In this document: piece by piece, positions 57,884-61,516 of the stretch | Layout of the letters: the number at the start of each line of letters is the position of its first letter | Position numbering within the stretch: position 1 is the stretch's first letter | Assembly: GCA_003104995.1 (NCBI GenBank) | Contig: PQAO01000024.1 | Span: 62,001 to 126,000 of the forward strand | DNA: 64,000 nt | Reading direction: 5' to 3' | Origin: Dehalococcoidia bacterium | Lineage (GTDB): Bacteria; Chloroflexota; Dehalococcoidia; Tepidiformales; Tepidiformaceae | Notes under the pieces: model-generated | Told to the model about the DNA's origin: nothing | What the model saw: the letters and a program-made list of their open reading frames with translations, nothing else | Database searches by the model: none | Position numbers and translations under genes: made by a program

Positions 57884-57994
57884 GGGTCACGTAGCGGCAC
57901 AACCGCGTGCAACGTTATACGACACTAAACTCTTGAAAACGCTCTTTTTGGTGCTACGGTGTCTGGAGCTTCCAACCACAGGAGATGGGGACCC

Positions 57995-59170
57995 ATGACT
58001 GCGACGATGAGCCGCGACGTACTGACTACGGAGATGATCGACCGGTTCGGTGAACGCGCCGGGACCTACGACCGGGAGAACCGGTTCTTCAGCGAGGACT
58101 TCGAGGAACTCCGCGCGAGCGGATACCTGAAGATGGCGATCCCGGAGGGATTCGGGGGGCTTGGCTACACGCTTGCGCAGGTTTGCGAGCAGCAGCGGCG
58201 GCTGGCGTACCGGGCGCCGGCGACAGCGCTCGCAACAAACATGCACCTGTACTGGACAGGTGTAGCCGCCGACATGCGACGGATGGGCGACAGCAGCCTG
58301 GAGTGGATCCTGAAAGAAGCGGCCGCGGGCGAAGTGTTCGCCGCCGGCCATGGGGAGGCGGGCAACGACATGCCGCTGTTCCTCTCGACGGCCCGTGCCG
58401 AGAAGGTGGACGGCGGCTACCGGTATTACGGCCGCAAGCAATTCGGCAGCCTGACCCCGGTGTGGACGCGGCTCGGGATGCATGCGATGGACGCGAGCGA
58501 TCCAAAAGCGCCCCGGATCATCCACGCGTTCATGCCGCGTGATACAACCGGCTACCGCATCGAGGAGACCTGGGACACACTCGGAATGCGGGCGACCCGG
58601 AGCGACGACACGGTACTGGATGGGGCGTTCGTCCCGGACCGGTACATCGCGCGGGTGATCCCGGCGGGCCAGGCGGACCTGTTTGTGTTGAGCATTTTCG
58701 CCTGGGCCGAACCGACCTTCGCGAGCATCTACATGGGGATTGCCCGGCGCGCGATAGACCTGGCGGTGCAAACGGCGCACAAGCGGACGTCGCTCGCGCT
58801 GACGCGGCCGATGGCCTACAACCCGGAGGTCCAGCACGCCGTCGCGGAGATGACATTCGCCTTCGACGGGGCCGAGGCGCAGGTCGAGAAAGTTGCGGAC
58901 GAGTGGTCGCGCGGCGTGGACCATGGGCACGCCTGGCCCGGCAAGCTCGTCTCGGCGAAGCACAATGCTGTTGAGGCCGCGAAGCTCGTGGTGGACAAGG
59001 CGATGGCCATTTCCGGCGGCAGCGGGATGTTCAAGGGGAGCGAGCTCGAACGGCTCTACCGCGATGTCCGCTGCGGTGGATTTCACCCGGCGAGCAGTCT
59101 CCTGGCCCCGGAGATCGTGGGGAAGGTGACACTCGGGATCGACCTCGGAGAGGCGCCCCGCTGGGGGTAA
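57995..59170 (+). CDS. Acyl-CoA dehydrogenase family protein (2)
   Basis: The 391-residue flavoprotein shows the ACAD layout: FSEDFEELRASGYLKMAIPEGFGG, the LATNMHLYWTG helix, the middle domain RYYGRKQFGSLTPVWTRLGMHAM, and the C-terminal four-helix bundle with FKGSELERLYRDVRCGGFHP. CAGGAG lies 12 nt before the ATG giving MTATMSRDV. It is alone in its transcript, with a perfect 12-bp hairpin after the stop. Substrate unknown. Confidence 0.9.
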   Translation: MTATMSRDVLTTEMIDRFGERAGTYDRENRFFSEDFEELRASGYLKMAIPEGFGGLGYTLAQVCEQQRRLAYRAPATALATNMHLYWTGVAADMRRMGDSSLEWILKEAAAGEVFAAGHGEAGNDMPLFLSTARAEKVDGGYRYYGRKQFGSLTPVWTRLGMHAMDASDPKAPRIIHAFMPRDTTGYRIEETWDTLGMRATRSDDTVLDGAFVPDRYIARVIPAGQADLFVLSIFAWAEPTFASIYMGIARRAIDLAVQTAHKRTSLALTRPMAYNPEVQHAVAEMTFAFDGAEAQVEKVADEWSRGVDHGHAWPGKLVSAKHNAVEAAKLVVDKAMAISGGSGMFKGSELERLYRDVRCGGFHPASSLLAPEIVGKVTLGIDLGEAPRWG

Positions 59171-59199
59171 GCCACCGGCGCGTGTGCCGTCCTCCTGCA

Positions 59200-59230
59200 G
59201 TGGCCCCGCCGTGCGAACCGGCGGGGCCAC
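59200..59230 (+). terminator. Perfect 12-bp hairpin after acyl-CoA dehydrogenase (2)
   Basis: GTGGCCCCGCCG pairs with CGGCGGGGCCAC around a 7-nt loop, 29 bp after the stop codon. The lack of a T-run makes it a weak intrinsic terminator; it may stabilise the 3' end. Confidence 0.7.
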
Positions 59231-59268
59231 ACTGGTTGCGCGAGCAAGGGGCGAGTATTGTCGCCTCC

Positions 59269-60366
59269 ATGGTGACCCTGCTGATCAACGGCCACACGTC
59301 AGTGACCCCGGCCGGGGCCCCCGGCCCCGGGCCGTGGGTGCCTGTGAGCCAAATGGCGGCTCTGACCGGGTGGGACCTGAAGCCCGAAGGCGCGTGCCTG
59401 GGCGAGCGGTGCGTGCCGATCCCTCCGGGTCGTTCGGACGAGTTCGAACGCGAAGGCTGGTTCAATATGGCAGCGCTGGCCGCCCATCTTGGACAGCCGC
59501 TGGCCGAAGACGCGGAAACGGAGACGTGGTGCATCGGCGAAGCTCCGGCGGACCGGGCAACGGCACTGAATTCGGCGATCGCGCCCGACTTCAGGCTTCC
59601 GGACTACCGGGGGACGGAGTACACGCTCAGCCAGTTCAGGGGACGGAAGGTGTTCCTCGTTTCGTGGGCATCGTGGTGAGGATGCCGCCATGACCTGCCC
59701 GTGTGGCAGGCGCTGACCGAGGAGTTGGCCGATACCGGCCTCACAATCGTGGCGGTGGCGCTCGAGTCGCGCGGCCTCGATGCAGCCTTGCCGTACATCG
59801 AGGCCGCCAACCCGACCTACCCGTGCCTCGTCGATCGGCAGCACGTGGTGGCCGAACTGTTCGGGATGGTGAACGTGCCGACAGCCGTCTGGATCAACGA
59901 GGAGGGCCGGATCGTTAGGCCGCCGGAGCCCGCGGGGACGAACGACGCGTTCCGCAAGATGGACCCGGCGACGGGCCGGCTCGCAGCGGAAGACCGGCAG
60001 GCGCTGCGAGACGAACGGCAACGGTACCTCGATGGCGTTCGTGACTGGGCGCGCCGTGGGGATGAGTCGCCGTGGGCGCTCGACGAAGCGGTCGTCCGGA
60101 GCCGGCTCGCCCGGCCCAGGGGGGAGCATGAACTCGCCCGCGTCCACTTCCGGCTTGGCGAGCATCTCTGGGAGCTGGGGCACGGCGACCGCGCACAGGC
60201 TCACTTCGCCCAGGCAGTGCGCCTCCACCCCGAGAGCTGGGCGTACCGGCGCCAGGCGCTGGACCTGGAACAGCAAGGCAAATCCATGGGGCGGGAGTAC
60301 TGGGAGGCGGTGACCGCTCTCGGCGACCGGCACTACTACCCGCCGATCATCGCGCCCGAGAGTTAA
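59269..60366 (+). CDS. Redoxin with in-frame UGA at the active-site Cys position (probable selenoprotein)
   Basis: Read through the TGA at 59677-59679, the ORF is 365 codons, all in one frame. Residues 1-100 form an N-terminal domain (LTGWDLKPEGACLGERCVPIP). Residues 108-245 are a thioredoxin/TlpA-like domain: APDFRLPDYRGTEYTLSQFRGRKVFLVSWASW, then U137, GCRHDLPVWQALTEEL, and the cis-Pro segment GMVNVPTAVWINEEG. The C-terminal third is helical with a TPR-like unit. Close relatives have Cys where UGA stands here (WASWCGCR-type), so selenocysteine is the simplest reading. A TATTGT box ends 7 nt before the ATG. A recent nonsense mutation is the alternative. Confidence 0.78.
59680..59710 (+). promoter_or_regulatory. 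Candidate bacterial SECIS hairpin
   Basis: Starting 14 nt after the UGA, CCTGCC pairs with GGCAGG around a CGTGT loop. Distance and size fit the SelB-binding upper stem-loop of bacterial SECIS elements, and the loop contains GU. The sequence also encodes the conserved DLPVWQ, so the hairpin must be read as a double-use region. Confidence 0.5.
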
Positions 60367-60458: not shown

Positions 60459-60478
60459 CGCGGCCACGGAGGACAGTG

Positions 60479-61516
60479 ATGCGCATTGCGATTGGCTTTG
60501 GAGGCGGCGCCGACTGGGCGCGGGCAGCAACATTCGTGCAGGAAGCGGAAAAGCTCGGCGTGGACTTCTGCTGGACCGCGGAGACCTGGGGGTTCGACGC
60601 AGCGACGCCGATTGGCTACCTCGCCGGGAGGACTGAGAAGATCCGGCTGGGCACGGGGATCATGCAGCTCGGGTCGCGCTCGCCGGCGATGCTGGGGATG
60701 ACGGCGATGACCCTGAACTCGCTGTCGAACGGGCGGTTCACGCTGGGCCTGGGGGCAAGCGGTCCGCAGGTGGTGGAGGGCTGGCACGGGGTGCGGTTCG
60801 CGCACACGCTTCCGCGCATCCGCGACGCTGTCAACATCGTGAGGATGGTGACGCGCGGGGAGCGGGTGGCCTACAAGGGCGAGTACTACGAGCTCCCGCT
60901 GCCGGGCGGCGAAGGCAAGGCACTCAAGAGCTCGGCGCCGCCGATGCAGATCCCGGTCTACCTGGCGACACTCAGCCCGAAGGCGCTCGAACTCACGGGC
61001 GAGATCGCGGACGGGTGGATCGGCACGTCGTTCATGCCGGAACACGCGGATGTGTTCTTCGAGCACATGCGCAGGGGCGCGGAGCGGGCGGGGCGCAGCC
61101 TGGCGGACATCGACGTCCAGGCGGCGGGGGGCGTCGTCCAGTTCTCGGACGACCTGGAGCGCATCATCCCGCCGCGGAAGCCCGGGCTGGCCTTCACGCT
61201 GGGGGCGATGGGCTCGCGCCAGCACAACTTCTACAACGCGGCTTACCGGCGGGCCGGGTATGCGGATGAGGCGGTCGCAGTCCAGAAGCTCTGGCTCGAT
61301 GGGAAGCGCGACGAGGCCGCCGCGCTCGTGCCGGATGAGATGGTGTTGCAGACCAACCTGCTCGGCACCGAGCAGATGATCCGGGAGCGGATCCGCGTGC
61401 ATCGCGACGCCGGCGTGAACACCATCCGGGTACAGCCGGAGGGGTCGAACATGGACGAGCGTCTCGAGACGCTCGCCCGGGTCGTGCGCATCGTGCGGGA
61501 GGAAGCGCCGGAGTAG
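60479..61516 (+). CDS. LLM-class F420-dependent oxidoreductase
   Basis: The 345-residue TIM-barrel protein belongs to the luciferase-like monooxygenase family: MRIAIGFGGGADWARAATFVQEAEKLGVDFCWTAE at the first strand, GYLAGRTEKIRLGTGIMQLGSRSPAMLGMTAMTL, RFTLGLGASGPQVVEGWHGV and EIADGWIGTSF. The length and GASGPQVVEGWHG block are those of F420-dependent reductases/dehydrogenases. GGAGG lies 6 nt before the ATG. Substrate unknown. Presence implies F420 in the organism. Confidence 0.92.
   Translation: MRIAIGFGGGADWARAATFVQEAEKLGVDFCWTAETWGFDAATPIGYLAGRTEKIRLGTGIMQLGSRSPAMLGMTAMTLNSLSNGRFTLGLGASGPQVVEGWHGVRFAHTLPRIRDAVNIVRMVTRGERVAYKGEYYELPLPGGEGKALKSSAPPMQIPVYLATLSPKALELTGEIADGWIGTSFMPEHADVFFEHMRRGAERAGRSLADIDVQAAGGVVQFSDDLERIIPPRKPGLAFTLGAMGSRQHNFYNAAYRRAGYADEAVAVQKLWLDGKRDEAAALVPDEMVLQTNLLGTEQMIRERIRVHRDAGVNTIRVQPEGSNMDERLETLARVVRIVREEAPE

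Follow-up and report, generated by a model that had tools for sequence, protein, structure and literature searches.

A redoxin gene with an in-frame UGA in a Dehalococcoidia genome very probably encodes a selenoprotein of the WAxxUGC family

Redoxins with a UGC motif have been described in selenoprotein surveys: a 'Prx-like (UGC-containing)' family with 46 selenoproteins and 855 Cys homologues was given for the GOS samples (PMC2398784, 2008), and a UGC selenoprotein family appears again in the selenoproteome reviews PMC9312934 (2022) and PMC13188914 (2026), the former of which, like the 2008 paper, files it as Prx-like. The published entries, named UGC-containing Prx-like or TlpA disulfide reductase selenoproteins, resemble the protein analyzed here in joining a PF00578 or cd02966 redoxin domain to UGC (PMC2398784, PMC9312934, PMC13188914); this comparison covers motif and domain, the long form with a CX4C domain and a tail not being given in the tables of those papers. 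Judged by motif and domain, the published UGC entries and the NCBIfam family NF041054 are likely one family. The string 'Chloroflex' is absent from the main text of both reviews (PMC9312934, PMC13188914). Our literature search found no functional study of the UGC/WAxxUGC redoxin family, and the name 'WAxxUGC' was not found. ResA and TlpA have a CxxC active site. They share with our protein the thioredoxin-like fold (1st9 and 2f9s for ResA, 1jfu for TlpA) and the position of Pro204, and match it in sequence too, whereas its UxC motif is one residue shorter than CxxC, and its N-terminal CX4C domain and tail lie outside the domain aligned with ResA/TlpA. By fold the protein thus belongs with ResA/TlpA, but by its active site (U-G-C, not CxxC) it does not, and it scored 66.6 bits against the curated ResA model NF002854, whose cut-off is 170.

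We analyzed a window of 64,000 nucleotides from a Dehalococcoidia bacterium, in which a single reading frame for a redoxin (Table 1) is, on translation, interrupted solely by a TGA at codon 137. The program-made list of open reading frames divides the gene into two (59182-59679 and 59701-60366). The original prediction placed this TGA where redoxins have their catalytic residue, and the data agree: the Pfam AhpC-TSA match (E 7e-16) runs across the TGA, related proteins have Cys or TGA there, and the motif WASW-U-GC-RHDLPVW is present as given, WASWUGC being residues 133-139. From base composition alone, the chance that the downstream codons stay open is ~0.012, so that the open frame taken alone is suggestive only and homology decides. 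An Rfam scan of the gene gave nothing besides a Guanidine-III riboswitch match on the other strand, which at 16.7 bits against a gathering score of 36 was taken as chance.

Table 1 Features of the redoxin gene in the window (positions of the window; residues of the read-through protein)
Feature	Position	Strand	Remarks
Whole redoxin gene	59269..60366	+	365 residues with Sec predicted at 137, TAA stop; NCBIfam NF041054
N-terminal domain, ~residues 1-92	59269..59544	+	Conserved CX4C: Cys43 (59395-59397), Cys48 (59410-59412)
AhpC-TSA/redoxin domain (TlpA/ResA-like thioredoxin fold), residues 104-216	59578..59916	+	Pfam; Pro204 at presumed cis-Pro position
Predicted Sec137 codon, in-frame TGA	59677..59679	+	Same column TGA in 40 loci, counting the window copy, and TGC/TGT in 6
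Cys139 codon, presumed resolving residue of U-G-C	59683..59685	+	Cys in 31/31 long and 9/9 short alignment rows; role inferred
Putative SECIS hairpin	59694..59710	+	Stem 59694-59699 with 59705-59710; loop 59700-59704 CGUGU, G second
TPR-like helical tail, residues 290-322	60136..60234	+	Sub-threshold Pfam matches; predicted structure

Against NF041054.1 (WAxxUGC_long, ResA-like WAxxUGC motif-containing protein), the window protein scored 346.2 bits over residues 24-359, the cut-off being 300. It has the motif, the N-terminal part, the redoxin domain and the tail of that family, and by this score the gene adds a member to an already named family; the UGC motif, which the original prediction regarded as unusual, is in fact what that family is known by. 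The window protein is a divergent member, as the Cys forms L054 and L056 reach 535 and 536 bits and L025 reaches 476, while a TGA form (L053, 294 bits) and a Cys form (L055, 295 bits) fall just under the cut-off. Short-form redoxins with WASW-U-(G/R)-C (L035-L042 and L044) share the UxC motif, the hairpin and the tail motif with the window gene but have no N-terminal CX4C domain; the three of these nine that were scanned (L038, L040 and L042) scored 151-153 bits to NF041054, under 300, and passed no other listed NCBIfam cut-off.

Full-length relatives are 36-52% identical to the window protein, one of them 90%, and the TGA is kept in the same column except in six loci, where Cys (a CGC motif) stands in its place, as expected of a Sec/Cys family. 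Some match at E <= 1e-10 was found in 231 of 400 genomes of the window's phylum; most of the phylum matches listed comprise the redoxin domain only, without a stop, and among them are at least 12 full-length relatives (own copy excluded) with 40-47% identity and one TGA each. The nine short forms belong to the same phylum. Eight other loci that were read (L043, L045-L051) have CxxC, one residue longer. A contig scan yielded six loci, namely L052 (90%, TGA), L053 (TGA) and the Cys forms L054, L055, L056 and L057; L052 is recorded as Chloroflexota, L053 as Chloroflexi and the genome of L054 as Actinomycetota. In the phylum of L054, 20 of 396 genomes had a match at E <= 1e-25, 15 with TGA at the motif and three with Cys (L091, L092 and L079, the last being the L054 gene again and counted once); as for the remaining two, the G642 copy looks frameshifted and the G528 match begins after the motif. 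The apparent frameshift of the G642 relative (L089, G642:C1:2560995-2562017) lies around the motif; this genome, which has SelA, holds a second place with both TGA and TAG. Among the loci read, 40 thus have the Sec form and 6 the Cys form, in a sample found with a Sec-form query; at least eight further TGA places among the phylum matches listed (two in G302, the others in G153, G093, G252, G113, G105 and G002) lie outside this tally. In the alignment, UxC is found in 35 Sec rows, CxC in 5 Cys rows and CxxC in 7 outgroup rows, and the tree was built from these 47 rows (L050, a CxxC form, L052 and L092-L096 are in neither the tree nor the column counts). The Cys rows fall at four separate places in the tree, albeit with long-branch warnings, and the simplest reading is that Sec and Cys have been exchanged repeatedly.

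An internal stop looks like a pseudogene, and one relative (L089) does appear frameshifted, so the TGA might be a nonsense mutation, or a miscalled TGC or TGT, in a Cys redoxin. We give this reading next to no credence and regard it as already refuted by conservation: not counting the window gene, 39 loci found in searches of two phyla have TGA at this column. One of them is the 90%-identical gene of a second MAG (L052) and 38 are further loci, which speaks against the sequencing error that the original prediction had named as a possible refutation. Between the window gene and L052, dN is 0.057 and dS 0.362 on the 3' side of the TGA, and this dN/dS of ~0.16 indicates that purifying selection acts downstream of the TGA. 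The covarying hairpin and the co-occurrence with SelA, both described below, argue against a pseudogene as well.

SelA and SelD make Sec-tRNA, and SelB brings Sec-tRNA to the ribosome at UGA by binding a hairpin. The window's genome (G000, 3.24 Mb, 91% complete) has all of the genes for which the original prediction proposed a search, each above its cut-off: tRNA-Sec (69.3 bits, anticodon TCA), SelB (302 bits), SelA (512 bits) and SelD (358 bits). A second match to tRNA-Sec above the cut-off (51 bits) was rejected, being tRNA-Ser(GCT) according to ARAGORN. The SelD gene (L019, G000:C21:74792-75727) itself contains one in-frame TGA, read TTCGGUASK, with a hairpin predicted downstream, and a peroxiredoxin gene near a contig end (L059, G000:C8:91-462) has an in-frame TGA within a TGGU motif and is probably an additional selenoprotein of this genome; we take the TGAs of both to sit at catalytic positions, as in the known families.

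An in-frame TGA alone cannot separate Sec from other readings, for example reassignment of UGA throughout the genome or its leaky reading as Trp or Cys, with no Sec involved. We consider this very improbable. TGA serves as an ordinary stop at the end of 4 of 11 chosen frames in the window, and it stops the redoxin gene itself in L052, L026, L030 and L034, L052 having TGA both inside the gene and as its stop. The full sel set in the genome and the state of the hairpin in the two forms also oppose reassignment or leaky reading, since the five inner stem pairs are intact in 40/40 TGA forms, whereas 4/6 Cys forms have them broken.

The 6-bp hairpin that the original prediction had placed 14 nt past the UGA is present there. 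Its stem is CCUGCC/GGCAGG and its 5-nt loop has G second and U third, the spacing from the TGA being 14 nt to the stem and 20 nt to the loop. The isolated hairpin folds at -10.6 kcal/mol and is present in folds of 59671-59720 and 59650-59730, while 40-, 45- and 64-nt stretches starting at the TGA have a different minimum-energy fold. The bSECIS model quoted in PMC13188914 has a loop of 3-9 nt, a stem of 4-16 bp, G among the first two loop nucleotides, a spacing of 16-37 nt and an MFE <= -7.5, and the hairpin lies within every one of these quoted limits; the comparison with a bSECIS model suggested in the original prediction therefore came out in its favour, and the hairpin covaries besides. 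The five inner pairs were formed in 36/36 TGA forms, compared with 13.0 expected if synonymous codons are picked at random according to the usage of each gene, and in 2/5 Cys forms, compared with 1.3 expected. In the loci added later they were formed in 4/4 TGA forms and 0/1 Cys form, and among all Cys forms L056 and L057 keep every inner pair. These tallies cover neither the frameshifted L089, the CxxC loci L043 and L045-L051 and unread loci, nor, in the phylum of L054, a second place in each of G551, G578 and G642 and the G528 match. All 40 TGA forms have the loop G. The covariation score was 0.216 compared with 0.085 for shuffled alignments and was reached in 0/500 shuffles; when the partner was slid by 1-3 columns, the score was at most 0.054. 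In 39 distinct rows, pairing was seen in 97.9% of cells and a change on both sides in 12 cells, the latter falling in three of the six stem pairs. In L095 (L095:490-534), EVPVWD replaces DLPVWQ and two pairs, a C-G and a G-C, are inverted together, which leaves the stem in place though the peptide is rewritten; SelA was not found in the genome of L095. Protein constraint accounts for part of the conservation of the stem, which overlaps the codons of a conserved peptide. At residue 145, the 40 TGA forms have Val or Gly and the six Cys forms Leu, Ala or Gly. The hairpin fits the published model as a SECIS element, with SelB binding and Sec insertion predicted.

SelA was above the cut-off in 35/39 genomes with a TGA form vs 0/6 with a Cys form (Fisher p 2.6e-5, uncorrected for the relatedness of the genomes). 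By group, it was found in the window's own genome (1/1), in 11/12 genomes with the long form in its phylum, in that of L052 (1/1) but not L053 (0/1), in 8/9 with the short form and in 14/15 TGA-form genomes of the phylum of L054. The four TGA-form genomes in which SelA was not above the cut-off are G217 (86% complete), G329 (77% complete), G401, which holds L053, and G441. The tally omits G642 (copies that look frameshifted or have TAG), G528 (whose match begins past the motif) and five non-carriers (G146, G226, G356, G121 and G382). Three further genomes from the window's family in the phylum search lack the long form, and one of them has SelA. Because the Sec genes are present, the catalytic TGA is conserved, the hairpin covaries and Cys occurs in relatives from genomes without SelA above the cut-off, the product of the gene is very probably a selenoprotein that belongs to the WAxxUGC (NF041054) redoxins, with Sec at UGA137, the decoding of this codon as Sec being, from these comparisons, close to certain.

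An AlphaFold2 model from seven sequences (pLDDT 77.8, pTM 0.76) matches ResA and its relatives over residues 97-268, for example 1st9 (Z 16.8, rmsd 2.2, 136 aligned). The selenoprotein could instead be chiefly a peroxidase of the peroxiredoxin or GPx type: the top Pfam family is AhpC-TSA, a GSHPx match appears below its cut-off, Prx and Bcp chains align to the model at Z 14-15, and the UGC family is filed as Prx-like in PMC2398784 and PMC9312934. We consider this rather unlikely, since the top matches in both sequence and structure are thiol-disulfide oxidoreductases of the ResA/TlpA/DsbE type, and WASW-U-G-C occupies the place of WAxxCxxC, with another Cys following two residues later in the manner of a dithiol site. 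The TPR-like tail proposed in the original prediction is helical in the model, but the Pfam matches within residues 290-328 stay below their cut-offs (TPR_2 24.4 of 27 bits, TPR_16 20.4 of 32.7 bits).

The CX4C of the N-terminal domain is found in 29/31 long alignment rows; of the two others, L086 is cut by a contig end, and L057, which lay outside the aligned range in this count, shows both Cys in other comparisons. Seven N-terminal pieces matched no Pfam family at E <= 1, a Foldseek search of this domain against the PDB gave a best E of 1.2, and comparison with 150 chains gave a best Z of 2.1 (rmsd 3.6, 47 aligned) with a Paenibacillus Cu/Zn SOD. The model of the domain alone, from six sequences, is mediocre (pLDDT 72.9, pTM 0.60), and the domain may therefore have a known fold; its strand-helix-strand pattern may resemble that of copper amine oxidase N-terminal repeats. 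The window's protein is probably cytoplasmic, no leader peptide being seen by eye. The Cys forms L055 (L055:2857-2920) and L057 (L057:2680-2745) start with a hydrophobic leader, also by eye, so that some Cys relatives may be exported.

The gene lies between an acyl-CoA dehydrogenase gene (57959-59170) and a luciferase-like monooxygenase gene (60476-61516). A comparison of a 12-kb part of the window with 12 long-form regions (L065-L076) and L052-L057 revealed no widely conserved neighbor gene and no functional clue. Beyond frames belonging to the redoxin locus, L052 has the same downstream genes as the window, a luciferase-like relative lies a few kb off in L068, L054 and L056 have neighbors in common, and some other families come up in two or three regions. 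Substrate and partner are guesses because no neighbor gene is widely conserved.

In the reaction that we propose for the selenoprotein, SelB would deliver Sec at UGA137 via the hairpin and translation would continue to the TAA; the Sec137 selenolate would attack a substrate disulfide (a peroxide less likely) in a ResA-like fold, Cys139 would resolve the site through a U-x-C selenenylsulfide, which a thioredoxin-type donor would re-reduce, possibly via the N-terminal CX4C pair, and the TPR-like tail may serve in partner binding. Judging from fold and motif, attack by Sec137, resolution by Cys139 and disulfide reduction in the cytoplasm, as opposed to a mainly peroxidatic role, are probable. More tentatively, the long WAxxUGC proteins may constitute a two-center selenoenzyme unlike the known TlpA/ResA, in which the N-terminal CX4C would donate electrons to, or keep a metal beside, the shortened U-x-C site, the tail would be a docking platform and the SECIS would constrain the protein, residue 145 being Val or Gly because the loop base must be G.

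The window thus appears to hold a well supported selenoprotein gene, divided in two by a program-made list of reading frames, in a phylum without mention in the main text of PMC9312934 and PMC13188914. The Sec:Cys ratio of 40:6 found here is the reverse of the 46:855 in the GOS samples (PMC2398784), though our query was a Sec form and the GOS counts may rest on a broader grouping. The family offers a natural test of a SECIS lying within a conserved peptide, including, in L095, a case in which peptide and stem have changed jointly.
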